From assembly GCA_947459535.1 (NCBI GenBank), contig CANHDY010000004.1, positions 1-40,873 of the forward strand: a stretch of 40,873 bases of DNA, in the 5' to 3' direction. A program made the translations under genes and the position numbers. The notes under the pieces are model-generated. The model did no database searches. It was given only the letters and a program-made list of their open reading frames with translations, and was not told the DNA's origin. Numbering within the stretch: position 1 is the stretch's first letter; every line of letters begins with the position of its first letter. Source of the DNA: Rickettsiales bacterium. Its GTDB lineage: Bacteria; Pseudomonadota; Alphaproteobacteria; Rickettsiales; SXRF01. This document shows, in pieces, positions 2,561 to 39,750 of this stretch.

Positions 2561-4062
2561 AGCGGTAGCTCCATCTGCGGCGCAGATCTTTGCGGCTTTC
2601 GTCTGGAAGGCGGCCGCGCGCGGCTGCCAAGGCGCTGGTAAACTGCGCGTGCCTGCTCCTGAAACTCTGATGAGCTCCATGCACGGCTGAGTTTCGCCCG
2701 CGCCTCTTTCACCGCCGCCTCATGTGGCACGATGGGCGCCGGATAGCCCGCTGGCGGCGTTTCCATACGCCACGGTTCATGAATGAAACTCTGCGCCGCA
2801 GCTTCAAGCTCCGGCACATAGCGGCGGATGAATTTACCCTGCGGATCCTGCTCCAGCGATTGCTTGATAGGGTTGTAGATGCGCACGGTATTGATGCCCG
2901 TGACACCGGATTGCATCTGAAACTGCGAGTAATGAATGCCCGGTTCGTAATCCGTGAAAAGTCTGGCAAGCAGCGGTGCGGTTTGCCGCCAGTCGAGCCA
3001 GAGATGATAGCTGGCAAAACTCACCAGCATGGCGCGCATGCGAAAGGTGATCCAGCCATTGTCATGCAGGCTGCGCATGCAGGCATCGACCAGCGGGTAG
3101 CCGGTGCGCCCATGAATCCATGCCTCAAGCCACGCCTCATTGCCATGCAGCTCCCGCAGCCCCTCAAAGGCGGGATGCATGCAGTGTGTCTCAAGCGCGG
3201 GTTGCTGCTCGAGTTTCTGCACAAAATGGCAGCGCCACGCGAGGCGTGAAAGAAAAGCGCGAAGGCCGCGCGCCATGTAGGCAGCCTCCGGATCGCTCAG
3301 GCCACGAAGGCTTGCAAGCTTGCTTTTCGTCTGCTGCTCAATCTCGCGCACGGATAAGGTGCCATAGGCAATGTGGGCGGAAAGGCGCGAGCAATGGCGC
3401 GCGGAAACGCCGGGCTTTGAGATGGTGGCCGTGTAGCGGCGCGCTCGCTCTTTCAGAAACGAGGCCAGCAACTGCTGCCCCTGCCCGCGCCCGCCCTGCT
3501 GCACATGGCCAATATCAAGCCGGCCAAACATCGCATCCTGTTTATCTGGTAGCATGCCTGCCTCCAGAGCGGTCGGCGTAAGTGAGGTCGGCGGCGCCAC
3601 CAGCGGCTGCTGCATGCGCGCATCGCGCTGCGCCTGCCAGCTATCGCGCGTGGCAAGCTTTCGCACCACCCCATGCGAAGGAAATTCCAGCCAGGAAATG
3701 TCATGGCTGCGGCACCACATGCTAACGCGTTTATCGCGCGCATAGGTCCAGCCATTTCCTGTTTCTTCGTGAGAATAGAGTGTCAGCTTACCGGCACTTG
3801 ATCGAATGGATTCCAGCACCGAAACTATCTCGCCCACCCGCACCACCAGCGGCGCGCCCAGCGCCGCCAGCTCCGCGCGTAGTAGCGCCAGCGAATCATG
3901 AATGAAATGCCAGTGACGGCGCGAGACATCCGCAAGCTGCCAGTACTCAGGCTCCACCACATAGAGCGGCAGAACGCGGCCGCCAGCCTTGGCCGCAGCG
4001 GCAAGCGGTGCGTGGTCACCTGCGCGCAGGTCGCGCTTGAACCACACCACCGCCAGTGTCAT
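2557..4062 (-). CDS. cryptochrome/deoxyribodipyrimidine photolyase family protein
   Basis: A 501-aa flavoprotein. The N-terminal photolyase alpha/beta domain begins LAVVWFKRDLRAGDH and holds HEETGNGWTYARDKR near residues 98-112. The C-terminal FAD-binding domain has the block WIHGRTGYPLVDACMRSLHD, then DNGWITFRMRAMLVSF and a QSGVTGINTVRIYNP segment. These fit light-driven repair of cyclobutane pyrimidine dimers or a cryptochrome-like photoreceptor. I cannot assign the subclass from motifs alone. The start lies one base after the SDR stop and the stop overlaps the Fe-S photolyase start, so the two photolyases are co-translated. Together they would cover both main UV lesions. Confidence 0.9.
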   Translation of the reverse strand: MTLAVVWFKRDLRAGDHAPLAAAAKAGGRVLPLYVVEPEYWQLADVSRRHWHFIHDSLALLRAELAALGAPLVVRVGEIVSVLESIRSSAGKLTLYSHEETGNGWTYARDKRVSMWCRSHDISWLEFPSHGVVRKLATRDSWQAQRDARMQQPLVAPPTSLTPTALEAGMLPDKQDAMFGRLDIGHVQQGGRGQGQQLLASFLKERARRYTATISKPGVSARHCSRLSAHIAYGTLSVREIEQQTKSKLASLRGLSDPEAAYMARGLRAFLSRLAWRCHFVQKLEQQPALETHCMHPAFEGLRELHGNEAWLEAWIHGRTGYPLVDACMRSLHDNGWITFRMRAMLVSFASYHLWLDWRQTAPLLARLFTDYEPGIHYSQFQMQSGVTGINTVRIYNPIKQSLEQDPQGKFIRRYVPELEAAAQSFIHEPWRMETPPAGYPAPIVPHEAAVKEARAKLSRAWSSSEFQEQARAVYQRLGSRARPPSRRKPQRSAPQMELPL

Positions 4063-7171: not shown

Positions 7172-7394
7172 GTAGGTCTCACCACGTACACCGGGCTGAC
7201 TGACAAAATACTGCCGTATTTTGACGCTGCCTTCGGCGCGGCCAGCTTGGCTTTCGGCCTAAGCTAGCGTAGCCAATAAAAATTATTGGCTACTGCGGGA
7301 CGCACCATAACCACCCGGACGAACCAGTCAGCGGTCAAGTATGTTGACGCGTCCATTTCCAAAAAGGAAATCAGGTTACTCCCCTAAGACCATG
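7172..7394 (-). promoter_or_regulatory. yybP-ykoY family manganese riboswitch with large insert
   Basis: Read on the minus strand, the leader contains GGGGAGTAACC, GGAAATGGACGCGTCAAC followed by ATACT, and GGTGAGACCTACGG at the 3' side. These match the conserved core of yybP-ykoY leaders such as E. coli alx and mntP. P1 can be drawn as GGTCT (7391-7387) pairing with AGACC (7179-7175). Between them lie extra hairpins at 7269-7293 (11-bp perfect stem) and 7204-7223 (8-bp stem). It sits 80 bases before a TMEM165/GDT1 gene, a classic partner. High Mn2+ is expected to increase expression. Confidence 0.85.
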
Positions 7395-7396
7395 TT

Positions 7397-28880: not shown

Positions 28881-29436
28881 ATGTTATCGTCATCGCGAGC
28901 TGAAGGCGAAGCGATCCAGTACGAAAATCTGGATTGCTTCGCTTACGCTCGCAATGACGGCACTATTCAGTTCTGGTGTATTTGCTAAGCCACCAGAGAT
29001 TGAAAAAGCCATCAAAGCCGAGGCGGCTTATGGCAAAGGCGCGCTCACAAGGCTGATTTTCCATGCCTACGACGCCGAGCTGTGGACGGATACCAAACCC
29101 TGGTCGTATGACGCGCCGTTTGCACTCAGCCTTACTTACCGCATGAATTTCACCAGTGAAGAGCTGGTGGAAAAAACCCTTGACGAGCTTGCGCGCATCC
29201 ATGGCGATAAAAGCCGCTACCGCGATGAGCTGTATCAGGCGTTTCCGGAGGTCAAAGACGGCGACCGCATCACCGCGCTTTTCCTGCCGGAAAAGGGAGT
29301 GCGTTTTTATTATAACGGGCATAAAACCTCGATGATCCCCTCGCCCGCTTTTGCCCGCAAGTTTTTTGATATCTGGCTGTCGGATCAAACCTCTGAGCCA
29401 CGCCTGCGCCGCAAGCTGCTGGGGCTCGGCGCATGA
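28873..29436 (+). CDS. chalcone-isomerase-like exported protein (PF16036-like)
   Basis: A 187-aa protein. The mature part has AYDAELWTDTKPWSYDAPFA, LSLTYRMNFTSEELVEKTLD and PEKGVRFYYNGHKTSMI, matching the CHI-like domain seen in DUF3833/CFA operons, probably a fatty-acid-binding fold. The first 38 residues form a signal peptide whose basic region (YRHRELKAKR) and hydrophobic core (IWIASLTLAMTALFSSGVFA) are encoded by a palindromic repeat (28888-28959). The ATG at 28873 overlaps the CFA gene end; upstream codons in this frame are a shadow. It likely works in the periplasm on membrane lipids. Confidence 0.78.
   Translation: MRKCYRHRELKAKRSSTKIWIASLTLAMTALFSSGVFAKPPEIEKAIKAEAAYGKGALTRLIFHAYDAELWTDTKPWSYDAPFALSLTYRMNFTSEELVEKTLDELARIHGDKSRYRDELYQAFPEVKDGDRITALFLPEKGVRFYYNGHKTSMIPSPAFARKFFDIWLSDQTSEPRLRRKLLGLGA
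28888..28959. repeat. GTCAT-CGCGAG palindromic repeat, copy 1 (inside coding sequence)
   Basis: Begins CGTCATCGCGAGC, ends GCTCGCAATGACG, with GCGATCCAG and CTGGATTGCTTCGC as inner arms. The same family occurs at 29446-29526 and 33681-33763. It encodes the signal peptide of the chalcone-isomerase-like protein. Confidence 0.9.
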
Positions 29437-29445
29437 TAAGTTTTT

Positions 29446-29526
29446 CGTCATTGCGAGGGAGCGAATGCGACCGAAGCAATCCAGAAAGATTCAGCTGGAT
29501 TGCTTCGCCTTCGGCTCGCAATGACG
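29446..29526. repeat. GTCATTGCGAG palindromic repeat, copy 2
   Basis: Begins CGTCATTGCGAGG, inner GAAGCAATCCAG and CTGGATTGCTTCGC, ends GCTCGCAATGACG. The terminal ATGACG holds the likely MFS start codon at 29521. Confidence 0.9.
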
Positions 29527-30789
29527 GCTAACTTGACCTATCATCAGCTTCTTCGCTATGCCGTTCTTGGCATTCCGCTTGGGTTTGTCGGGCTGCCGCT
29601 GTATGTGCATTTGCCGAAATACTACGCGGATTTTCTACCACTGTCGCTGGCGGCCATTGGCTTCGCGCTTTTTGCCACGCGTATTGTGGACTGTGTGGCC
29701 GATCCGTTCATCGGCGTGCTGTCGGATCGTCTGGCGGCGAAGCGCCGGCTACTCAGCGTCGCCGCGGCTTTAGTGATGGCACTGGGTGTCATCGCGCTGT
29801 TCTTCCTGCCGAGCTACGCCACCAGTGAAACGGCGATGCCGCTACTCATGCTGCTGCTTTGTATCACCTACCTTTCCTTCAGCCTGCTATCGGTGAATTT
29901 TTTTGCAAGTGGGCTGCTCATTTCCACCGACCCGCGCGAAACCACGCGCATCTCCGCCTGGCGCGAAGGCGCGATTATTCTTGGCGTGCTGGTGGCCTCT
30001 GCTTTGCCGCAAATACTCACAGAGGGACGCAGCAGCGAAGAAGCCTATCATCTCTTTGCGTGGATCGCAGCGTGGGTGATTATAGCCGCTTTGTTTACTC
30101 TTAAATCGCCATCATCCATTAAAACACCCCCACCCTGCCCTCCCCCGCAAGCAGGGGAGGTAAATTTTAGAGCTGTCTGGGAAAATAAAACGCTGCGCTG
30201 GATTTTTGCGATTTTCTTTATCAACGCCATTCCGCCTTCCATCACCGCGACGCTGTTTTTATTTTTTGTCTCGGATGTGCTGGGCGCGCCGGATTCAAGC
30301 GGCGCGTTTCTCGGGCTGTATTTCCTTGCCGCAGTACTTGCCATGCCGCTATGGGTAAAGCTGGCCACGCGCATCGGCAAACGCCGCTCGCTGATCAGCT
30401 CAATGACGCTCGCCATCCTTTCCTTCATCTGGGCGTATGGGCTGGATAGCAGCAATAGCACCATGTTTTATGCCATCTGCCTGCTTTCCGGCGCGGCGCT
30501 CGGCGGCGATTTGGCAGTGCTGCCCTCGCTGCTTTCAGACGCGCTGAAGGGCAAAGAACATCAAGGCGGGCTCGAGTTCGGCATCTGGAACTTCATCAGC
30601 AAATTCACCCTCGCCATGGCGGCCGGCATCGCGCTGCCGCTGCTGGCAGCGCTGGGCTATGAATCAGGCGCACGAAGCGAGGCAAGCCTTGGCGCACTCT
30701 CATTTGGCTACGCGCTGCTGCCCTGCCTCTTTAAACTCGGCGCGCTCGCACTACTTATACTAAGCCCCTTAGAGAGGAAAAACCCATGA
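29521..30789 (+). CDS. MFS carrier of the GPH/MelB type (COG2211)
   Basis: A 422-aa, 12-helix transporter. TRIVDCVADPFIGVLSDR after helix 2 is the MelB-type motif; ISAWREGAIILGVLVASALP and LSGAALGGDLAVLPSLLSDA also fit. Members in DUF1365/CFA operons are thought to move lipids or related compounds. The ATG at 29521 lies in the right arm of a repeat; the family N-terminus (LRYAVLGIPLGFVGLPLYVH) begins about 11 residues later and no other ATG is near. Residues of about 198-215 (SSIKTPPPCPPPQAGEVNFR) are encoded by another repeat inserted in frame in the central loop. Its stop overlaps the next gene (ATGA). Confidence 0.87.
   Translation: MTANLTYHQLLRYAVLGIPLGFVGLPLYVHLPKYYADFLPLSLAAIGFALFATRIVDCVADPFIGVLSDRLAAKRRLLSVAAALVMALGVIALFFLPSYATSETAMPLLMLLLCITYLSFSLLSVNFFASGLLISTDPRETTRISAWREGAIILGVLVASALPQILTEGRSSEEAYHLFAWIAAWVIIAALFTLKSPSSIKTPPPCPPPQAGEVNFRAVWENKTLRWIFAIFFINAIPPSITATLFLFFVSDVLGAPDSSGAFLGLYFLAAVLAMPLWVKLATRIGKRRSLISSMTLAILSFIWAYGLDSSNSTMFYAICLLSGAALGGDLAVLPSLLSDALKGKEHQGGLEFGIWNFISKFTLAMAAGIALPLLAALGYESGARSEASLGALSFGYALLPCLFKLGALALLILSPLERKNP
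30126..30163. repeat. CTCCCCCGCAAGC repeat inside the MFS gene
   Basis: CCTCCCC-CGCAAGCA-GGGGAGG hairpin (30139-30160). Shares the 13-base CTCCCCCGCAAGC with the intergenic element at 39726-39738. Translated in frame as a Pro-rich loop. Confidence 0.8.
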
Positions 30790-31316
30790 AAAAACTCTGC
30801 GCCCTTGCTGCCACCGCTGCCTTCATGCTTGGCGGCTGCAGCGCCACCACCACCGAAGATTATGCCAGCAAAACCCCCAAGCTCGACATCCGCCACTATC
30901 TTAATGGGCCGCTCGAAGCGCATGGTATTTTGTTTGATATGTCCGGCAAAGCTGACCTTGAATTCAAGGTCACGATGAAGGGCGCATGGAACGGCAATAC
31001 CGGCACGCTGGATGAGGATTTTGTGTTCAGCGACGGACGCAAGGACAAGCGCGTCTGGACGGTAACATTCAAAGATGACCACCACTTTACCGCGACCGCC
31101 CATGATGTCATTGGCGAGGCCGTGGGCACCCAGCACGGCAATGCCGTGAATATGAAATACACGCTGCGGGTAAAGCGCGCAAATGGCGATATGATTGATC
31201 TTACGATGGATGACTGGATGTATTTGCTGGATGACAAAACCCTGATCAACCGCACCAAGATGAAAAAATTTGGTTTCACGGTCGGTGAGCTGGTGATTAC
31301 GTTCAGGAAACTCTAA
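30786..31316 (+). CDS. DUF3833 lipoprotein
   Basis: A 176-aa protein with a lipoprotein signal (LCALAATAAFMLGGC, lipidated Cys18). DUF3833 blocks are clear: LDIRHYLNGPLEAHGILFDM, LDEDFVFSDGRKDKRVWTV and YTLRVKRANGDMIDLTMDDW, ending KFGFTVGELVITF. It is probably an outer-membrane or periplasmic lipid-associated protein and co-occurs with CFA-like, DUF1365 and MFS genes. The start overlaps the MFS stop (ATGA). Confidence 0.9.
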   Translation: MKKLCALAATAAFMLGGCSATTTEDYASKTPKLDIRHYLNGPLEAHGILFDMSGKADLEFKVTMKGAWNGNTGTLDEDFVFSDGRKDKRVWTVTFKDDHHFTATAHDVIGEAVGTQHGNAVNMKYTLRVKRANGDMIDLTMDDWMYLLDDKTLINRTKMKKFGFTVGELVITFRKL

Positions 31317-31319
31317 CAT

Positions 31320-31388
31320 CGTCATTCCCGCGAAAGCGGGAATCCAGAATATTTAATAAACTGGATGCCCGTTTTCACGGGCATGACG
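31320..31388. repeat. GTCATTCCCGCG palindromic repeat, copy 1
   Basis: CGTCATTCCCGCG-AAAG-CGGGAATCCAG on the left; CTGGATGCCCG-CGGGCATGACG on the right. It fills the gap between DUF3833 and SDR genes. Related copies at 35107-35194 and 36341-36490. Confidence 0.9.
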
Positions 31389-31398
31389 TAGGAAGGTA

Positions 31399-32196
31399 AT
31401 GATGCATTATTTTTCCGGCAAGCATATCTGGCTGATCGGCGCGAGCGAGGGTATCGGCGAGGCGCTGGCGGCAAAGCTGGCAGCAGCGGGCGCGCATGTG
31501 TGTCTGTCAGCGCGGCAAGCTGATAAGCTGGAGGCGCTTAAAGGTTCCCTGCAAGGAACGAATCACCTCGCCGCCCCGCTTGATGTCACCTCGCTTGAAA
31601 GTTTGACATCAGCATGGGAAAAGATTCAGCAAAACTGGCCGCGCGTTGATACCGTGATTTACAATGCCGGAACCTATGAGCCGATGGATGCCACGCAGTT
31701 TGATCTTGCTAAAGTAGAGCATGCGGTGGATGTAAATTTTCTTGGCGTGCACCGTATGCTCTCGCTGGTTTTGCCTTATTTTATAGAACGCGCCAGAAGC
31801 CCTCACCCTAACCCTCTCCCGGAGGGAGAGGGAATCCCTCACATCGCCCTGGTTGCGAGTGTGGCGGGTTATCGCGGCCTGCCCGCCGCGATGGGTTACG
31901 GCGCAAGCAAAGCCGCGCTGATTCACCTCGCTGAAAACCTGAAAGCAGATTTGAAGGACATGGTGAAGGTGCAGGTAATTAACCCGGGCTTTGTCGCCAC
32001 GCGCCTTACGGCGAAAAACAATTTCCACATGCCGATGATGATTTCGGCGCAGAAAGCAGCGGATTATATCTTTGCTGGGCTGCAGAGCAGCCGCTTCGAA
32101 ATTCACTTCCCGCCTGCTTTTTCACTGCTGCTGAAAGCGCTCGCACGCCTGCCCTACGGGGTTTATTTCTGGCTGCTGAAGCACATGAAATTTTAA
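31399..32196 (+). CDS. SDR family oxidoreductase of the lipid operon
   Basis: A 265-aa classical SDR: GASEGIGEALAAKLAA, NAGTYEP, LVASVAGYRG, catalytic YGASK and NPGFVATRLTAKN. NAD(P) and substrate are not clear; relatives in CFA/DUF1365 operons are unassigned reductases. Residues of about 133-146 (RSPHPNPLPEGEG) are encoded by a palindromic repeat inserted in frame just before the catalytic serine strand. The frame remains open, and all catalytic residues are intact. An AGGAAGG site precedes the ATG at 31399 (31402 is also possible). Last gene of the operon. Confidence 0.87.
   Translation: MMHYFSGKHIWLIGASEGIGEALAAKLAAAGAHVCLSARQADKLEALKGSLQGTNHLAAPLDVTSLESLTSAWEKIQQNWPRVDTVIYNAGTYEPMDATQFDLAKVEHAVDVNFLGVHRMLSLVLPYFIERARSPHPNPLPEGEGIPHIALVASVAGYRGLPAAMGYGASKAALIHLAENLKADLKDMVKVQVINPGFVATRLTAKNNFHMPMMISAQKAADYIFAGLQSSRFEIHFPPAFSLLLKALARLPYGVYFWLLKHMKF
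31800..31833. repeat. CCCTCACCCTAACCC repeat inside the SDR gene
   Basis: CCCTCACCCTAACCC followed by CTCTCCC-GGAGGGAGAGG. Its first 21 bases are identical to 38049-38069 in the RND gene. Both copies are read in the same frame as SPHPNPLP. Confidence 0.9.
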
Positions 32197-32199
32197 GTC

Positions 32200-32300
32200 C
32201 GTCATCCTGCGATCTCGCCGTAGCGCAAGCGAAGGCGGATGCGCAGGATCTCATGCAGCATAGGATCCTGTGCTCGTCACTGGCGTGACGCCACAGGATT
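32200..32300. repeat. ATCCTGTG/CGCAGGAT compound palindrome overlapping the tnaA 3' end
   Basis: Two hairpins: ATCCTGCG with CGCAGGAT (about 32204-32250) and AGGATCCTGTG with CACAGGAT (about 32262-32300). It begins with GTCAT like the other families. It encodes the last dozen or so tryptophanase residues. Confidence 0.75.
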
Positions 32301-33666
32301 GGAGCGGCTCGAAATGGGCGGTGAAGTGGCGCAGGAACGGCGCCTGCCAGGTGATGCGGTGCGGCATAATTCGGCTAGCGTTTTTCTTCACCTCCGCGAG
32401 CACTTCGATCACATAATCAAAATGGCTCTGGGTATAAACGCGGCGTGGGAATGCGAGGCGTACCAGCTCGCGCGGGCCGCTGATTTCGCTGCCGTCCTTG
32501 TGCTTGCCAAACATTACGCTGCCAAGCTCCACCGCGCGGATGCCGCCTTCGAGATAGAGCGCGTTGATGACGCCGATGCCGGGATAATCGGTTGGCTTTA
32601 AGTGCGGGCAAAAACGCTGCGCATCGATAAACACGGCGTGGCCGCCCGGCGGGCGCACGATGGGAATATCAAGCGCGATCAGCCGATCGGCCATGTATTG
32701 CACGGTGGCGTGGCGGTAGCGCTGGTAATCTTCTTCCAGCGCTTCCATTAGCCCCACAGCAATCACCTCGAGGTCACGTCCGGCTAGGCCGCCGTAAGTT
32801 GGAAAGCCTTCGGTGAGAATCAGCATGTTGCGAAAATCTTCCGCCCACTTGTCGTCATTGCAGGTGAAAAACCCGCCGATATTGGCAAGCCCGTCTTTTT
32901 TCGCGCTCATCGAGGAGGCGTCGGCGTAGGAGAACATTTCCTGCGCAATCGCAAGCAGCGACTTATTCTGATAGCCCGGCTCGTGCTGCTGGATGAAATA
33001 GGCATTTTCGGCAAAGCGGCATGAGTCCAGCACCAGTGGGATGTTGTGCTTTTTCAGCACGGCTTTCACAGCGCGGATATTTTCCATCGACACCGGCTGA
33101 CCGCCGCCGGTGTTATTCGTGACCGTGATCATGCCGAAAGGAATTTTCTCACGTCCGTGCTTGGCAATACAGGCCTCTAATTTAGCAATATCCATATTGC
33201 CCTTGAACGGCTTGTCAGCGGCAAGATCCATCCCGGCATCGGTGAGCAGATCCAGCGCCTCGGCGCCCGCCACTTCGAGATTAGCGCGGGTGGTGTCAAA
33301 ATGGCTGTTATTGGGAATCACATGGCCGGGCTTAATGCGCGTCTGGGCGAGGATGCGCTCGCCTGCCCTGCCTTGATGGGTGGGGAAAATATGCTTCATG
33401 CCGGTGATGTTTCGCACTGTCTGCTCGAAGCGCTGCCATGAATAGCTGCCCGCATAGCTCTCATCGCCGAGCATCAGCGCCGCCCACTGCTTGGCCGACA
33501 TCGCGCCGGTGCCGCTATCGGTGAGCAGGTCGATGGTGATATCCTGCGCCTGAAGCAGAAACACGTTATGGTGCGCTGCAGCAAGTGCAGAGTCGCGCTG
33601 GCTGCGGTTTGTAATCGGCACCGCCTCGGTCATTTTGATGCGAAATGGCTCGATGATTGTTTTCAT
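32251..33666 (-). CDS. tnaA: tryptophanase (beta-eliminating lyase; tyrosine phenol-lyase less likely)
   Basis: A 471-aa PLP enzyme that splits tryptophan to indole, pyruvate and ammonia. Family blocks: LTDSGTGAMSAKQWAALMLG, FPTHQGRAGERIL, VTNNTGGGQPVSMEN and the PLP-lysine segment SMSAKKDGLANIGGF (Lys256/257). GIRAVELGS has a leucine where tyrosine phenol-lyase carries its substrate arginine, favouring tryptophanase, although ANIGGF is closer to tyrosine phenol-lyase. The normal end is near LRHFTAHFEPL. The last dozen or so residues (VTPVTSTGSYAA) come from a repeat. No tnaC leader or tnaB permease is seen. Confidence 0.88.
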   Translation of the reverse strand: MKTIIEPFRIKMTEAVPITNRSQRDSALAAAHHNVFLLQAQDITIDLLTDSGTGAMSAKQWAALMLGDESYAGSYSWQRFEQTVRNITGMKHIFPTHQGRAGERILAQTRIKPGHVIPNNSHFDTTRANLEVAGAEALDLLTDAGMDLAADKPFKGNMDIAKLEACIAKHGREKIPFGMITVTNNTGGGQPVSMENIRAVKAVLKKHNIPLVLDSCRFAENAYFIQQHEPGYQNKSLLAIAQEMFSYADASSMSAKKDGLANIGGFFTCNDDKWAEDFRNMLILTEGFPTYGGLAGRDLEVIAVGLMEALEEDYQRYRHATVQYMADRLIALDIPIVRPPGGHAVFIDAQRFCPHLKPTDYPGIGVINALYLEGGIRAVELGSVMFGKHKDGSEISGPRELVRLAFPRRVYTQSHFDYVIEVLAEVKKNASRIMPHRITWQAPFLRHFTAHFEPLQSCGVTPVTSTGSYAA

Positions 33667-33680
33667 AAAAGGCTCCTCAT

Positions 33681-33763
33681 TGTCATCGCGAGCCGCGCAA
33701 GCGGCGTGGCGATCCAGTTAGCAGTTGAACAAGCTGGATTGCTTCGCTACGCTCGCAATGACA
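33681..33763. repeat. GTCAT-CGCGAG palindromic repeat, copy 3
   Basis: TGTCATCGCGAGCC at the left, GCGATCCAG and CTGGATTGCTTCGC inside, GCTCGCAATGACA at the right. It lies between tnaA and the divergent isocitrate dehydrogenase gene. Confidence 0.9.
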
Positions 33764-33831
33764 GAATTTCAACTCATTCTTAATATACGCGAATTAAGCT
33801 CGCTACAATTTTTCTACAACAGGATTTACTT

Positions 33832-35106
33832 ATGACTCAAAAAATTCCCGCTCCCGCGATGGTGTATATTGCCGGTGAGGAAATGACGCGTGAAGTGATG
33901 AAGCGTGTGCTGGATGCGTGGGTTTCTCCTTACCTTGAAACAGCCAAATGGCAATGGTTTGATCTCTCCTGCAAAAGCCGGGATACGACCGGCGATAAGG
34001 TGCTGAAAGATGCCATTAACGCTGGCGCCGAGGTGGGCGCGATTTTCAAAGAACCAACGATTACGCCGACTGACGAACAGATGCGCGAAATGGGGCTTTC
34101 CAAACCGCTCGGCAGCCCGAATGGCAAGATGCGCGCGGCGTGGAATGGCTATTCGATCGACCGTGATACCATCGTGGTGCCCGGGCTTGAAAATTTGATG
34201 GGTTATAAAAGGCCGGTGCTGTTCTGCCGCCATGCGGTGGGCGGGGAATATGGCGCGGGTCATGCCGTGGTCGGCCCCGGCACTCTCAAACTGCTCTATA
34301 TTGCGAAAGACGGCACCGAACAGGTGATCGACACGCGCGAACTCATTGACCAGAAAAATGCCGCCGTGGTCTATCACAACCCGCTGGATAATGTGCCGCT
34401 GCTGGCGCATCATTTCTTCAGCCGAGCCTTAGCGGCGAAGGTGACGCCCTACATTGTCACCAAAAAAACGGTGTTCAAATGGCAGGAGCCATTCTGGAAG
34501 CCGATGAAGGAAATTTTCGAACGCGATTACAAAGCGAAATTTGCGGAGGCCGGCCTGCTCGACAAAACCGGCGGCGAGCTGCGTCATCTGCTCTCGGATG
34601 ATGCGGTGATGAAAATGGCGCAGTGGCGCGATGGCGGCTTTGCCATGACCGCGCATAATTATGACGGCGACGTGCTGACCGATTTAGAGGCGCAGATTTA
34701 TAAATCGCCTGGTTTTATCTCATCGGTGCTGACCGGCGTGAAAGCCAGCGGCCAGAAAATCATGGAATTTGAGGCCTCACACGGCACGATTGCCGACCAG
34801 TATCACAAGTTTTTAAAAGGCGAGGAAACCTCGGTCAACCCGCTCGGCATGGTCTATGCGCTGCGCGGCGCGATTGATCATTCAGCGACACTCGCGCTGG
34901 AAAACAAGCAGATCGACAGCAGCTCAGCCGAACGCATCAAAACCTTCACCAGCCTGATGTATAGCGCCATGTGCGAAGCGATGGCTGAAGGCAAAGGCAC
35001 GCGTGATTTATCCGGCCCAAGCGGGCTTACCACCGAAGGCTTCATCACCGAAGTGGCTGGCAGGTTGAAAAGCAAAGTCGCGAAAGACCTGAAAATCGCG
35101 GCGTAA
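33832..35106 (+). CDS. icd: isocitrate dehydrogenase, eukaryote-type (type II) homodimer; cofactor possibly NAD+
   Basis: A 424-aa TCA-cycle enzyme like human IDH1/2: IAGEEMTREVMK, SPNGKMRAAWNG, FCRHAVGGEYGAGHAVVGPG, AHNYDGDVLTD and EASHGTIADQYHKF. The adenine/2'-phosphate site reads A321-D322-Q323 where NADP+ enzymes have T-R-H (AHGTVTRHY), so the arginine and histidine that grip the NADP+ phosphate are Asp and Gln. That points to NAD+ use. An AGGA site lies before the ATG, and TACAAT (33804-33809) is a possible -10. Stands alone, between repeats. Confidence 0.9.
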   Translation: MTQKIPAPAMVYIAGEEMTREVMKRVLDAWVSPYLETAKWQWFDLSCKSRDTTGDKVLKDAINAGAEVGAIFKEPTITPTDEQMREMGLSKPLGSPNGKMRAAWNGYSIDRDTIVVPGLENLMGYKRPVLFCRHAVGGEYGAGHAVVGPGTLKLLYIAKDGTEQVIDTRELIDQKNAAVVYHNPLDNVPLLAHHFFSRALAAKVTPYIVTKKTVFKWQEPFWKPMKEIFERDYKAKFAEAGLLDKTGGELRHLLSDDAVMKMAQWRDGGFAMTAHNYDGDVLTDLEAQIYKSPGFISSVLTGVKASGQKIMEFEASHGTIADQYHKFLKGEETSVNPLGMVYALRGAIDHSATLALENKQIDSSSAERIKTFTSLMYSAMCEAMAEGKGTRDLSGPSGLTTEGFITEVAGRLKSKVAKDLKIAA

Positions 35107-35194
35107 TGTCTATCCCCGCGGAAGCGGGGATCCTGACCCCCGCCTCTGTGTGACGAGAGATTCTTACTGGATTCCCGCTTACGCGGGAATGACG
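35107..35194. repeat. GTCATTCCCGCG-family repeat, copy 2
   Basis: Left arm CCCCGCGGAAGCGGGGATCC, right arm CTGGATTCCCGCTTACGCGG ending GAATGACG. It starts immediately after the isocitrate dehydrogenase stop and can fold as two GC-rich hairpins, which may serve as a terminator. Confidence 0.85.
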
Positions 35195-35235
35195 AATGGC
35201 TTGTCCAAACCCGCCAGTCTGATAGAGTGCTGGCC

Positions 35236-36366
35236 ATGGTTTCTAAGCGTTTGATTCTTGGTCTGGTGGTGGTCGCTGGCAGCGCCTACGGCGCTTACAG
35301 CTATTTCCTTTCCGGCGACGAGAGCAGCAAACAGCCGCCGCGCGGCGCGAGCGTCACGGTTGCGGCCGCCAGCCGGCAGGATGTTCCCCTTCAGCTATCG
35401 CTCGTGGGCACGGCGGAAGCCTTTGAAACGGTCGCGGTTAAATCGCGGCTGGATTCACAAATTATCGAGGTGGCGTTCAAGGATGGCGATTTGGTGAAGG
35501 AAGGCCAGCTGCTATTTACGCTCGATGACCGAGCGCTGGCCGCACAGGCACGCGAGCTGGAAGCAGAGCTTATGCAGGGCAAGGCGCAGCTGGTGAACAG
35601 CCGCCTGCAATATGAACGGGCGCAGGAGCTTTTTAAAACCAACACCGTGGCACAGGCTCGGGTGGATGATACGAAGGCGGCGTTTGAAGCGCAGCAAGCC
35701 GCGGTGCAGGCAACCGCGGCCAGCCTTGAAAACGTCCGGGTCATGCTGGGCTATAGCCGCATCACCGCCCCCATTTCTGGCCGCGCCGGAAGCATCCACG
35801 CCACGCGCGGCAACAATGTGAAGGCCAACGACGTGACGCCGCTGGTGGTCATTAATCAGGTGCAGCCGCTGCGTGTGCAGGTGGCGATCCCGCAGCGCCA
35901 TGTGGGCGAGGTGCGCCGCGCCATGGCCACAGGTCAGGTTGCCGCCACCGCCACCCATGACGGCGCCGATACCCTGTCACGTGGGGTGCTGGATTATCTC
36001 GATAATGCCGTGGATGTCACCAGCGGTACGCTTGCTGCGCATGTGCGCTTTGCCAATGAGGACGAAGCGCTGTGGCCTGGCATGTTCCTGCGCGTCACCC
36101 TCACGCTTGGCACCGAACAGGCAGCGCTCACCGTTCCTGCCGCAGCGATTCAGGGTGATGAAGGGGCGCGGTTTGTGTTTGTGGTGGATGAGGCTGGCAA
36201 AGCGAAGCGCACCAATGTCACCGTTTCCAGAATCATGGCGGATGTCGCGGTGATTGAAAGCGGGCTGGAAGAAGGCGCCCACGTCATCACCGATGGGCTG
36301 CTGCGGGTGAGTGATGGCAGCGCGGTGGAAATTAAGGATTCGTCATCCCGTGGTGCGGAGCAGTAG
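35236..36366 (+). CDS. RND membrane fusion protein (MdtA-like)
   Basis: A 376-aa adaptor: N-terminal anchor RLILGLVVVAGSAYGAYSYF, lipoyl halves (VKSRLDSQIIEVAFKDGDLV and ITAPISGRAGSIHATRGN), coiled-coil hairpin in between, and beta-barrel domain ending VIESGLEEGAHVITDGLL. It pairs with the next RND gene. The start at 35236 begins the anchor; the GTG at 35227 is an alternative. The last eight residues (SSSRGAEQ) and the stop are encoded by a palindromic repeat, so the native tail was probably replaced. No outer-membrane factor gene adjoins; the one at 18851 could be shared. Confidence 0.9.
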   Translation: MVSKRLILGLVVVAGSAYGAYSYFLSGDESSKQPPRGASVTVAAASRQDVPLQLSLVGTAEAFETVAVKSRLDSQIIEVAFKDGDLVKEGQLLFTLDDRALAAQARELEAELMQGKAQLVNSRLQYERAQELFKTNTVAQARVDDTKAAFEAQQAAVQATAASLENVRVMLGYSRITAPISGRAGSIHATRGNNVKANDVTPLVVINQVQPLRVQVAIPQRHVGEVRRAMATGQVAATATHDGADTLSRGVLDYLDNAVDVTSGTLAAHVRFANEDEALWPGMFLRVTLTLGTEQAALTVPAAAIQGDEGARFVFVVDEAGKAKRTNVTVSRIMADVAVIESGLEEGAHVITDGLLRVSDGSAVEIKDSSSRGAEQ

Positions 36367-36490
36367 CGCAGCGAGCACGGGATCCACGCTAAAAATGTCA
36401 GTAGACATTTTTAGACGCAAAAAGTCTTCTGACTTTTTGCTATACTGGATCCCGGATAAATTTTGCTGCTGCAAAATTTTCCGGGATGAC
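36341..36490. repeat. GTCATCCCG-family repeat, large composite copy
   Basis: CGTCATCCCG at the left and CCGGGATGAC at the right enclose inner hairpins: AAAATGTC/GACATTTT, GCAAAAAGTC/GACTTTTTGC and AAATTTTGC/GCAAAATTTT. It fills the MFP-RND junction and ends 11 bases before the RND ATG. Confidence 0.9.
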
Positions 36491-36501
36491 AAAAGGAAAT
36501 T

Positions 36502-39500
36502 ATGAACCTCTCAGAGTTCTGTATCCGAAGGCCGGTTTTTACCACGCTGCTGATGCTGGCGGTGGTGGTGGCGGGCTTTGCGGGTTACCGCGCCCTGCCG
36601 GTATCGGCGCTGCCGAAAGTGGATTTCCCCACCATTCAGGTGACCGCGCGCCTGCCCGGCGCAAGCCCGGAGACAATGGCCTCGTCGGTGGCCACGCCGC
36701 TGGAGCGGCAATTTTCAACCATCGCCGGCATCAGCTCCATGACCTCCACCAGCTACCTGGGTGTTTCGGAAATCACCCTGCAATTTGAGCTGGATCGCGA
36801 TATTGACGGCGCGGCGCTCGATGTGCAAACGGCGATTGCGGCAACGCTCAGCCGCCTGCCGCCGGAAATGCCGACCGCGCCCTCGTTTCGCAAAATCAAC
36901 CCGGCTGATCAGCCGATTTTATTCATTGCCGTCTCGTCGGATACGCTGCCAATTTCAAAAGTGAATGAATATGCCGATACGCTGATGGCGCAGCGTATCT
37001 CGATGGTCTCGGGCGTGGCGCAGGTGCAGATTTTTGGCGCGCAGAAATATGCGGTGCGCATTGAGGCGGATCCCAAGCGGCTCGCCGGTCATGACATCAG
37101 TTTTGATGAGGTGGAGCGCGCGGTGGCGGCCGCCAGCTCGAATGCGCCCACCGGCGTGATCAGCGGCGAAAAGCAGCTTTTTAACCTGAAAGTTGCCGGC
37201 CAGCCGATGGATGCGGCGACCTTCCGGCCACTGATTGTGACATGGAAAAACGGCGCGCCAGTTCGGCTTTCGGATATCGCGACCGTGACCGACTCGGTGG
37301 AAGACGAGCGCTCGGTCGGGTTTATTGACGGCGAGCGCTCGGTGGTGCTTGCCATTCAGCGCCAGCCGGATGCCAATACCATTCAGGTGGTGGATGATAT
37401 CCGCGCCCTGCTGCCGCAGTTTCGCGCGCAGGTACCGGCGAGCGTGACACTCACCCCGATGCTCGATCGTTCGGCTTCGGTGCGTGAATCGGTGCATGAT
37501 GTGCAGCTGACACTGGCGCTCAGTGTCGTGCTGGTAGTGCTGGTGATCTATGCGTTTCTGCCGAGCCTGTCTGCCACTTTCATTCCGGCGATTGCCATTC
37601 CGCTATGCATCATGGCGACTTACGGCGCCATGGCGCTGCTTGGTTTTTCGCTCAACAACGTCTCGCTGCTGGCCATCACGCTATGCGTTGGGTTCATGGT
37701 CGATGACGCGATTGTGATGATGGAAAACATCATGCGCTATCTGGAGCGCGGCATGGCACCGTTTGAAGCGGCTATCAAGGGCGCGCGTGAAATCACCTTC
37801 ACCATCATCTCCATCAGCCTGTCGCTGGTCGCGGTGTTTATTCCGGTTTTATTCATGGGCGGGGTGATCGGGCGGCTGTTTAACGAGTTTGCGGTGACCA
37901 TCACTGTTGCCACGCTGGTCTCGGCGCTGGTTTCACTCACCTTAACTCCCATGCTCTGCAGCAGGTGGCTGAAAGCCCATCATTCCCCCTCCCCCCATAG
38001 GGAGGAGGATGGGAGCGGCGCGACAGAGGATAGATCTCTCATACAAAGCCCTCACCCTAACCCTCTCCCAAAGGGAGACGGAATATCTTCGCGCTTCGAA
38101 AAGCTCTGGCAGTACAGTGTGCGTGGCTATGAGTCCAGTCTCGGCTGGGTGCTGCGCCACCAGCGCGCCACGCTGCTTACTACCCTTGCCAGCATCGCGC
38201 TTACGGTGGGTGCGTTCATGATCGTACCCAAAGGGTTTTTCCCGCTGGAAGATACCGGCTTTGTCTTTGCCTCCACCGAAGGCGCGCAGGATATTTCTTT
38301 TGAAGCGATGATGGAAAAGCAGATCGCCGCCGCTGAGATTGTTCGCGCTGATCCGGCGGTGAAGAATGTATTTTATGCGGTGGGCGGCGGGCGCGGCGCA
38401 CTCAATACCGGCCGCATGTTTTTCAGCTTAAAACCGAGGGGCGAGCGCGATCATGCAAGTAAGGTGATTGCCCGCCTGCGCGCTAAAACCGCCAGCGTGC
38501 CGGGCATTAATGTGTTCATGCAGCCGGTGCAGAACATCACCATTGGCGGAAGATTAAGCCGCGCGCTGTACCAATACACGCTGCAAAGCTCTGACCTTGA
38601 GGCGCTCTACGGCGCCGAGGCCAAACTGATGGCGGCGCTGCGCAAGGAAAGCGGCTTTCGCGACCTCAATTCCGACCTGCAGATGAAAAGCTTAGAGACG
38701 CACCTGCTCATTGATCAGGAAAAGGCGGCGAGCATGGGCATTACCTTTGAAGATATCCGCCGCGCGCTGTATCAGGCGTTTGGCACGGCGCAGGTGGGCA
38801 CGCTCTACACCCCCACCAACGATTACGCGGTGATACTGGAAGCAAAAAGCGATGCCTCGCCGTCGCCCGATGAGATTCAGCAAATTCACCTGCGATCAGC
38901 GAGCGGCACGCTGGTGCCGATGAGCAGCTTTGCCACCCTGATGCAGCGCACCGGCGCACTTTCGATCAACCATCAGGGACAGATGCCGTCGGTGACCATT
39001 TCTTTCAACCTTGCCGAAGGTTTTGCGCTGAGCCAGGCGGTCGATCGCATTCGCGCGCTGGAGCGCGAGGCAGGACTTTCCGAAGCCATCACCACTAATT
39101 TCCAGGGCGCGGCCAAGGCGTTTGAAGATTCTGAGAAAAATCAGGGCATGCTGATTATTCTCACCATCCTCGTGGTCTATATCATCCTCGGCATGCTGTA
39201 TGAAAGTTTCATTCACCCGGTGACCATCCTCTCCGGCCTGCCATCGGCGGGGCTTGGCGCAATTCTCGTGCTGCTGCTGTTTGGCATGGATCTCAACGTC
39301 ATCGCGCTGATCGGCCTTCTGCTGCTGATTGGTATTGTAAAGAAAAACGCGATCATGATGATTGATTTTGCAGTGGCCGCGCGCGCTGAGGGAAGTAGCG
39401 CCGAGGAAGCGATTTATCAGGCCTGCCTGCAGCGCTTCCGGCCGATCATGATGACCACCTTCTGCGCGCTGTTTGGCACGCTGCCGATTGCGCTGGGCAT

Positions 39501-39630
39501 TGGCGCCGGCGCCGAGCTGCGCCAGCCGCTGGGGGTGACGGTGGTGGGCGGGCTTATTACTTCGCAGGTGCTAACCCTTTATATTACCCCGGTCATTTAC
39601 CTATTTTTTGAGCGGCTTCGTAAATCATAG
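36502..39630 (+). CDS. RND efflux permease (MdtB/MdtC-like) with in-frame repeat insertion
   Basis: A 1042-aa pump. Seen: MNLSEFCIRRPVFTTLLMLA, KVDFPTIQVTARLPGASPET, LCVGFMVDDAIVMMENIMRY, TLTPMLCSRWLKA after helix 6, KGFFPLEDTGF, and the C-terminal IGIVKKNAIMMIDFAVAARA. Residues of about 491-531 (starting HHSPSPHREEDGSGA and including SPHPNPLPKGDG) have no counterpart in the family and match two repeat elements; the frame stays open. The site is the cytoplasmic loop after helix 6, near where the other RND pump carries its insertion. AAAGGAAATT precedes the ATG. Substrate unknown. Confidence 0.92.
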   Translation: MNLSEFCIRRPVFTTLLMLAVVVAGFAGYRALPVSALPKVDFPTIQVTARLPGASPETMASSVATPLERQFSTIAGISSMTSTSYLGVSEITLQFELDRDIDGAALDVQTAIAATLSRLPPEMPTAPSFRKINPADQPILFIAVSSDTLPISKVNEYADTLMAQRISMVSGVAQVQIFGAQKYAVRIEADPKRLAGHDISFDEVERAVAAASSNAPTGVISGEKQLFNLKVAGQPMDAATFRPLIVTWKNGAPVRLSDIATVTDSVEDERSVGFIDGERSVVLAIQRQPDANTIQVVDDIRALLPQFRAQVPASVTLTPMLDRSASVRESVHDVQLTLALSVVLVVLVIYAFLPSLSATFIPAIAIPLCIMATYGAMALLGFSLNNVSLLAITLCVGFMVDDAIVMMENIMRYLERGMAPFEAAIKGAREITFTIISISLSLVAVFIPVLFMGGVIGRLFNEFAVTITVATLVSALVSLTLTPMLCSRWLKAHHSPSPHREEDGSGATEDRSLIQSPHPNPLPKGDGISSRFEKLWQYSVRGYESSLGWVLRHQRATLLTTLASIALTVGAFMIVPKGFFPLEDTGFVFASTEGAQDISFEAMMEKQIAAAEIVRADPAVKNVFYAVGGGRGALNTGRMFFSLKPRGERDHASKVIARLRAKTASVPGINVFMQPVQNITIGGRLSRALYQYTLQSSDLEALYGAEAKLMAALRKESGFRDLNSDLQMKSLETHLLIDQEKAASMGITFEDIRRALYQAFGTAQVGTLYTPTNDYAVILEAKSDASPSPDEIQQIHLRSASGTLVPMSSFATLMQRTGALSINHQGQMPSVTISFNLAEGFALSQAVDRIRALEREAGLSEAITTNFQGAAKAFEDSEKNQGMLIILTILVVYIILGMLYESFIHPVTILSGLPSAGLGAILVLLLFGMDLNVIALIGLLLLIGIVKKNAIMMIDFAVAARAEGSSAEEAIYQACLQRFRPIMMTTFCALFGTLPIALGIGAGAELRQPLGVTVVGGLITSQVLTLYITPVIYLFFERLRKS
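37981..38014. repeat. purine/pyrimidine-rich inverted repeat inside the RND gene
   Basis: CCCCCTCCCCCCATAGGGAG followed by GAGG, an imperfect hairpin read in frame as HHSPSPHREEDG, directly upstream of the repeat at 38049. Confidence 0.7.
38049..38081. repeat. CCCTCACCCTAACCC repeat inside the RND gene
   Basis: 21 bases identical to the copy in the SDR gene (31800-31820), followed by a hairpin arm CTCCC-AAAGG-GAG. Read as SPHPNPLPKGDG. Confidence 0.9.
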
Positions 39631-39750
39631 TTCTCCCCCCGCTTGCGGGGGGGAGTTAGAGGGGGGTGATTCACCCCCACCACTCGCCTAAGAATGTTGT
39701 CAAAACAACATTCAAGGCTCATTGCCTCCCCCGCAAGCGGGAGAGGTTAA
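39631..39750. repeat. CTCCCCCCGC/GCGGGGG compound repeat after the RND gene
   Basis: Three hairpins in a row: CTCCCCCCGCTTGCGGGGGG, GAATGTTGTC-AA-AACAACATTC and CTCCCCCGCAAGCGGGAG. Shares CTCCCCCGCAAGC with the MFS-gene insertion. May end RND transcription. Confidence 0.85.

Follow-up and report, generated by a model that had tools for sequence, protein, structure and literature searches.

Palindromic repeats that are translated as part of proteins are already known: Rickettsia palindromic elements (RPEs), as well as repetitive extragenic palindromes (REPs) located within open reading frames (ORFs), are described in sections of PMC10969869 and PMC3733652, and such palindromes have been found in Rickettsia, Wolbachia and some REP-rich genomes. 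Another repeat, the triplex motif (TM, also PIT), has been reported in more than 260 genomes and, according to sections of Holder 2015 (PMC4666352), is always intergenic in Escherichia coli MG1655. A protein that will be considered together with it, YcjD, is a PD-(D/E)XK relative of Vsr, as stated in part of PMC1189080. Here we describe a window of 40,873 nucleotides, which is contig 4 (CANHDY010000004.1) of the genome of a Rickettsiales bacterium (G000; 1.89 Mb, 130 contigs). The original prediction placed palindromic repeats in frame within three of its genes, coding for an MFS carrier, a short-chain dehydrogenase (SDR) and an RND efflux pump; all three repeats are present where they were predicted and are translated in frame. 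We consider it likely that the repeats are translated in-frame insertions of TM/PIT type, spread by or with a DUF559 nuclease, among which stop-free copies tolerated in loops survive.

The element shared by the SDR and RND genes is, judged by its sequence, the known G/C-rich intrastrand triplex motif TM/PIT, with the same three blocks as TMECO types A and B. The TM unit consists of a hairpin (CCCTCTCCC-loop-GGGAGAGGG) and a third strand (GGGTGAGGG), and occurs either singly or as an inverted pair. In G000, its 21-base core CCCTCACCCTAACCCTCTCCC together with the hairpin partner is the reverse complement of CCCTCTCCC-loop-GGGAGAGGG-TTA-GGGTGAGGG, that is, TM type A, and in the paired form the second arm is of type B (CCGG). 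The core occurs 58 times in G000 with at most two mismatches, compared with none for the reversed control pattern; thus, the repeat count is above chance. Exact copies of the core were found in 80 of the 398 Pseudomonadota genomes sampled. Similarly to RPEs, the G000 elements are palindromic, interspersed and multicopy. Their ends, inspected by eye, read CCCTCA/TGAGGG and have neither the GTAG nor the CGTC tag. The G+C content across the stretches fetched is 0.55.

The TM copies of the SDR gene (31797-31835) and the RND gene (38046-38084) are 92% identical across 39 nt. The shared reading SPHPNPLP that had been proposed for them stands, while the identical stretch, given earlier as 21 bases, comprises 24 consecutive bases (AAGCCCTCACCCTAACCCTCTCCC). 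In the RND gene two elements adjoin, each from a different palindrome family (37985-38008 and 38046-38084). Alignment to relatives revealed an insertion in both genes, namely 39 bp in the SDR gene and a net 87 bp in the RND gene, missing in the same-genus genome G001 at sites whose flanks align well. The SDR insert is missing in 19/19 homologues and the RND repeat peptide in 49/49 (G001 included in both counts), with the RND homologue of Cupriavidus (L042) carrying an unrelated long insert at the same site. The MFS carrier is a weaker case: relative to G001 its linker is seven residues longer and partly replaced, leaving no clean empty site. The MFS repeat (30139-30164) is nevertheless a repeat, being 88% identical to positions 39725-39750 between genes, and palindromes of this type were found at 17 places with up to three mismatches. 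The AlphaFold2 model of the RND pump, based on 31 sequences, has a single run longer than three residues in which pLDDT falls under 50, namely residues 494-526, which belong to the insert and lie between two helices; since low pLDDT is expected for columns without homologues, the model indicates only the position between helices.

To see how often TM copies are in frame, the surroundings of the repeat copies were fetched (376 kb including the window) and a hexamer coding score was trained on them; clusters were classified by an open frame together with a coding score above zero on both sides. There are 72 TM clusters in G000, of which 40 are in frame between coding flanks, 29 lie elsewhere and one is at an edge. 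The remaining two have coding flanks on the same strand but are not in frame and are probably disruptive. Finding at least 40 of 42 genic clusters in frame has a probability of ~1e-25 for random phase and length, and of 4e-7 even if all lengths are taken as multiples of three, both values being computed from the frames that are open in those in-frame elements. Of random positions taken from these loci, 73% fall within genes, which argues that TM repeats have no preference for genes and that genic copies survive only in frame. The 33-bp arms, which have a 3-nt loop, are confined to genes (10 of 40 in-frame clusters versus none of 31 others; Fisher 0.004), and the nine inverted pairs of 81, 84 or 87 bp listed, with the third strands outermost, are all in frame in genes (9/9). 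Furthermore, of the 33 in-frame clusters with a single arm, 22 share one frame and direction of reading (PHPNPLP...), even though an average of 3.7 of the six frames is open.

Several palindrome families besides TM are also in frame in G000 genes. In loci that had been picked for TM and C-rich copies, palindromes of the CCTCCCCCGCAAGC type are in frame in 9 of 26 clusters, and those of the CCTCCCCC..AGGGGGAGG type, a pattern partly overlapping the former, in 7 of 14, with one not in frame. For the GTCATTGCGAG type the corresponding numbers are 3 of 15 in frame and one not in frame, and for the GTCATTCCCGCG type 6 of 19 in frame, several of these six seemingly by chance. The CGTC counts are upper bounds, because one-mismatch matches ('CGTC1') include likely chance intragenic ones.

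The TM-bearing ORFs of G000 number 35, a list obtained from a set of 38 in-frame clusters, one of them weak (L101). NCBIfam names among the scanned hosts are DnaX, PurH, TruA, IleRS and KsgA/RsmA, and one more host ORF is a YbbP-like permease below the NCBIfam cut-off. Further hosts, recognised by sequence, are presumably MnmG, PurD, HemF, RibD, NadE, ThiE, RecG, ArgJ, GpmI and more. A comparable G001 counterpart is available for 30 of the 35 genes (the fetched set holds no G001 locus for the other five), and none of the 30 has a TM peptide at the site. Host proteins align to G001 at 71-95% identity, and the net length difference is divisible by three in 29 of the 30 genes. The one deviating gene, L116, keeps the frame when the proteins are aligned, and its deviation is thus probably an anchor effect. 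Neither outcome that would have refuted the original prediction was seen: orthologues are without the segments, and among genic copies 40 in-frame clusters stand against two probably disruptive ones. In L139, at 3489-3557 on the minus strand, a tandem 18-nt unit (CCCTCACCACCATTCTAG) stands beside an in-frame TM copy (SPHHHSSPHHHSSPHPSPLP) and resembles slippage expansion within a gene.

In-frame TM copies are not confined to G000. By the same classification, in two genomes of the same family, 9 of 12 (G004) and 5 of 14 (G005, assembled in 7 contigs) TM clusters are in frame, with one more of the latter not in frame; the corresponding numbers are 3 of 44 for G044 and 0 of 28 for G023. Every listed copy was fetched for G004, G044 and G023, and 16 of 21 copies for G005. 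In-frame load is thus characteristic of some lineages rather than of the repeat itself.

One loop of IleRS, aligned across 16 relatives, illustrates what such a site may hold. The loop is empty in six genomes (G003, G008, G012, G013, G015 and G022), has only a few extra residues in G035 and G042, and is poorly aligned in G025. It hosts TM elements in G000 and G005, and what seem to be CGTC-type palindromes, as read from the sequence, in G001, G006, G009 and G010. In G004 it contains a TM-type arm, a complete domain of ~105 residues and a second arm, all in frame, and the domain is DUF559 (Pfam PF04480, 1.6e-44). Where G000 has its TM insert, G001 (L198 / L287) contains a different, CGTC-like palindrome (VIPNAPAEGSKDSSPLARND); thus, one loop has seemingly been filled by different families in sister species. 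The same loop in G019 (L301) carries a GNAT acetyltransferase domain in frame (PF13302, 6.6e-19), and NCBIfam includes an exception family named 'ileS_w_GNAT'.

DUF559 is also the gene that the repeats bracket. PF04480 gave 36 matches in 19 of 31 genomes; from 30 DUF559 loci, two without a tblastn match (L340 and L341) were set aside, leaving 28 for the bracket and hairpin tests. An inverted repeat with a score of at least 12 was found within 130 bp of DUF559 at 17 of these loci, and with a score of at least 20 at 11. Random segments from TM-rich loci reached these scores in 7 and 2 of 1200 cases, respectively, and segments of the same loci away from DUF559 reached 12 in 3 of 369. Polypyrimidine hairpins are present on both sides of DUF559 at 12/28 loci versus 1/1759 controls, and on at least one side at 21/28 versus 4-18% in controls. 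Both DUF559 genes of G005 have a TM copy on either side, no more than about 60 bp away. Moreover, different DUF559 copies are bracketed by different repeat subtypes. Among 12 records of named organisms, chosen from 40 listed of 46, a clear two-sided bracket was identified in five, namely, Sinorhizobium meliloti, Pseudanabaena, Azospirillum lipoferum, Sphingomonas and Deinococcus, and one-sided or weak brackets in Shinella, A. brasilense, Methylobacterium, N. gonorrhoeae, Synechocystis and E. coli; the Sinorhizobium K101 record has no clear bracket.

The E. coli DUF559 member is ycjD, located between sapF and fabI; at least 80% of a 1200-bp query is covered in 3330 of 5426 genomes. A TM remnant follows ycjD directly, and a full TM, identical in sequence to entry 9 of Table 1 in PMC4666352, is found ~150 bp further, with nothing TM-like in the sequence read on the other side of the gene. 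The sapF-adjacent locus is variable in E. coli, with efflux genes in O157:H7 (L355) and ycjD in other strains. L355 was considered as a simple empty site and rejected, because an efflux operon stands beside sapF where ycjD would be.

The bracketing bears on the question of what moves the palindromes. Ordinary REP/RPE behaviour, in which a Y1 transposase (REP-associated tyrosine transposase, RAYT) or another unseen transposase moves them and DUF559 is merely nearby, would fit the REPs of GTAG and CGTC type that occur within ORFs of several species (sections of PMC3733652) as well as the few CGTC-type repeats that are likewise in frame in G000. However, Y1_Tnp (PF01797) has no match in G000, G001, G004, G005, G009 or G044, and one match at the cut-off in G023; based on this search in seven genomes, RAYT was dropped as the mover. 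The TM ends also lack the tags typical of that system, and the gene bracketed by the repeats is DUF559, in a comparison of DUF559 loci with random segments. We therefore regard this explanation as rather unlikely.

The repeats and DUF559 also co-occur across genomes. With DUF559 presence defined at E < 1e-10, 60 of 398 genomes have both TM and DUF559, 20 TM only, 50 DUF559 only and 268 neither (Fisher 8e-24), which amounts to DUF559 in 60 of 80 TM genomes versus 50 of 318 others; within one family of 73 genomes the corresponding counts are 8/5/3/57 (1e-5). The tests ignore phylogeny, which counts against a causal reading, but the family-level test limits that problem. This association should be considered together with passive spread, whereby triplex-forming repeats prone to recombination or slippage would multiply by template switching and DUF559 would be a passenger caught between copies. 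Instability of TM loci in E. coli, described in sections of PMC4666352, the presence of TM in genomes without DUF559 and in-gene pairs whose order is wrong for deletion derivatives would all be in line with such a process. On the other hand, it would have to account for the inverted ends that flank DUF559 at distances of up to about 150 bp on either side in several lineages unrelated to one another, for the matching of different copies with different repeat subtypes and for the higher frequency of DUF559 in TM genomes. Passive spread is accordingly judged unlikely.

Similarly to the G004 IleRS, a number of housekeeping proteins accommodate the DUF559 domain itself. Family scans of long ORFs detected it in frame within IleRS of G045, G004 and G042, within DnaE of G019 and G042, between the NTPase and finger domains, and within RecG of G015. 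In G018 a PRK06567-like protein with DUF559 matches its model in two stretches, below that model's cut-off. HolC and LipB of G000 carry DUF559 as well: each host profile matches as two stretches, and the domains are flanked by palindromes that belong, by sequence, to the window's MFS type. Two one-sided cases were not counted as interruptions, namely RecO of G004, where DUF559 follows the C-terminal domain, and a G005 protein in which it follows part of a YkuD domain. An alignment of 36 domains has 15 columns that are invariant in 36/36, embedded copies included, among them D50, E61, D63 and H67, which we take to be the residues expected of the nuclease core; the domains thus look maintained. 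These 36 domains comprise those of 25 of the 28 loci (L330, L338 and L339 are fragments or weak), HolC, LipB and 9 of the 12 named records. The named records left out are N. gonorrhoeae, Sinorhizobium K101 and Methylobacterium, none with a clear two-sided bracket, and a weak unflanked G000 copy (C34) is also outside the alignment.

That the hosts include essential proteins, IleRS, DnaE and RecG for example, might suggest intron- or intein-like removal, before or after translation, that leaves normal proteins. Yet 40 of 42 genic clusters keep the frame and are free of stops, neither of which RNA splicing would require, insert boundaries and lengths vary, and no intein or splicing (Hint) domain is among the matches listed for 12 long DUF559 ORFs; we consider such removal very unlikely. 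Finally, pseudogenes or assembly artefacts of a fragmented metagenome-assembled genome, an idea prompted by the 130 contigs of G000, have a negligible chance of being the cause, since the hexamer coding signal runs on in the same frame on both sides of the inserts, host proteins keep 71-95% identity to G001, in-frame copies recur in G004 and in the 7-contig G005, and the DUF559 bracket is found in records of named organisms as well.

We thus favor insertion of TM-type elements associated with DUF559. The complete element would consist of an inverted repeat, the DUF559 gene and a second inverted repeat, and the short palindromes would be its gene-less forms or relatives, with DUF559 presumably moving them. 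Insertions that break genes would be lost, and those that are in frame, free of stops and in loops would survive as linkers rich in Pro, Gly, Glu and Arg. When a complete element survives in a gene, a nuclease domain would come to lie within the host protein. The products bearing inserts would, presumably, be made and be functional.

In favor of this explanation, according to the coordinates in Table 1 of PMC4666352, four of five E. coli TM pairs have the hairpins outside and the third strands inside, as around DUF559. Several observations weigh against it. The nine in-gene pairs of G000 (81-87 bp) have third strands outside and hairpins inside, opposite to the DUF559 ends. These pairs, therefore, are not simple internal deletions of the DUF559 element. 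No hairpin is present on either side of 7 of the 28 DUF559 loci, although four of these seven are bracketed by the inverted-repeat score, and 3 of the 28 have neither bracket nor hairpin. Seven of the 12 named records, including E. coli, are without a clear two-sided bracket, and the presence of bracketed DUF559 in 26 of the 36 aligned domains reflects a selection favorable to the proposal. Some TM-rich genomes have no DUF559 match (G193 with 81 copies, G252 with 65, G044 with 42 and G086 with 28). No target-site duplications were clear by eye in the 30 G000/G001 alignments, a search for a clean empty site of the DUF559 element in S. meliloti gave none, and direct signs of movement were likewise lacking. 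In addition, a connection with DNA damage has been described for a Caulobacter DUF559 protein, for which a function in mismatch repair was proposed (PMC12907096, in part).

A broader proposal appears to us evenly balanced between acceptance and doubt: a class of bacterial mobile element as yet without a name, made of a DUF559 gene between inverted repeats of the hairpin-plus-third-strand kind and accompanied by gene-less relatives, might explain TM/PIT of E. coli and many bacteria and might reside without splicing in IleRS, DnaE, RecG, HolC and LipB, keeping the frame in loops that tolerate it. A candidate enzyme is now in sight, whose E. coli member, ycjD, has been little studied although laboratory strains carry it, and the question of where one of the most widespread repeats in bacteria comes from can be addressed directly. 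G000, with TM palindromes in some 35 genes, housekeeping genes prominent among them, stands beside a same-genus genome nearly free of them, and its natural insertions map sites at which important proteins accommodate roughly 10-130 additional residues.

The window contains further palindromes and features. Intergenic CGTC-type palindromes (GTCATTCCCGCG.. and GTCATTGCGAG..) are located at 31319-31347, 35107-35195, 33676-33770, 28917-28961 and 29438-29534, and one of them overlaps the part of the open MFS frame that extends 5' of the ATG at 29521. They probably represent families related to RPE-6 and RPE-4 as described in sections of PMC3733652. Upstream of the RND gene, at 36345-36490, inspection by eye revealed long imperfect palindromes (GTCATCCCG...CGGGATGACA) with nested inverted repeats. 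A yybP-ykoY manganese riboswitch is found at 7202-7396 on the minus strand (45.3 bits versus a gathering threshold of 45).

Table 1. Genes and palindromic repeats of the window discussed in the text
Feature	Position	Strand	Basis or context
MFS_2 carrier gene	29521..30789	+	translation; Pfam MFS_2 1.1e-62
C-rich palindrome of the CCTCCCCCGCAAGC family, read as TPPPCPPPQAGEV	30126..30163	+	central linker of the MFS_2 carrier
Short-chain dehydrogenase (SDR) gene	31399..32196	+	translation; Pfam adh_short 5.6e-39
39-bp TM palindrome in SDR, read as SPHPNPLPEGEGI	31797..31835	+	sequence, homologue alignment
RND efflux pump gene (AcrB/AcrD/AcrF family)	36502..39630	+	translation; Pfam ACR_tran
First RND palindrome, ATTCCCCCTCCCCCC..GGGAGGAGGATGGGAG, read as HHSPSPHREEDGSG	37981..38018	+	absent from G001
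Second RND palindrome, a TM copy, read as SPHPNPLPKGDGI	38046..38084	+	sequence comparison
Intergenic copy of the MFS-type palindrome	39724..39746	+	sequence match

Among described systems, RPEs (Ogata 2000/2002 via parts of PMC10969869 and PMC3733652) are similar in that stop-free palindromes of several families per genome stand in frame in unrelated genes, with orthologues lacking them; the proposed likeness to the Rickettsia elements is thus borne out. RPEs are, however, ~150 bp long (PMC10969869, in part), as opposed to 33-87 bp for the TM elements, and the G000 elements are set apart, going by the description of the sequences, by their TM blocks, their Pro/Gly/Glu/Arg-rich peptide, the G+C content of 0.55 and the link to DUF559. 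GTAG/CGTC REPs and their RAYTs (Di Nocera 2013; sections of PMC3733652) share with them short hairpins, inverted dimers, occasional location in ORFs and a transposase gene with its own repeats on either side, but TM elements have no such tag and G000 no Y1 match, and DUF559, a PD-(D/E)XK family, takes the place of RAYT. The papers on YcjD/DUF559 (PMC1189080 and PMC12907096) concern the same protein family, with the core residues kept, and in the parts drawn on here treat it as a predicted nuclease or putative mismatch-repair enzyme, with no mention of a repeat bracket or in-frame residence. Judged by titles and abstract openings, none of the open-licence papers listed in the searches made links DUF559 to TM-type repeats.

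Inteins and homing endonucleases also place a nuclease domain within essential proteins such as DnaE. DUF559 elements differ from them in that no splicing domain is listed for them, in their palindromic borders and in the existence of short nuclease-less forms. With TM/TMECO/PIT (sections of PMC4666352) the G000 elements share the three-block sequence, types A and B, inverted pairs and wide distribution; the sections used name no mobilising protein. In E. coli MG1655 these repeats are found only between genes, whereas 40 of the 72 G000 clusters are in frame within them, so an intergenic position characterises the copies of E. coli and is not part of how TM is defined.

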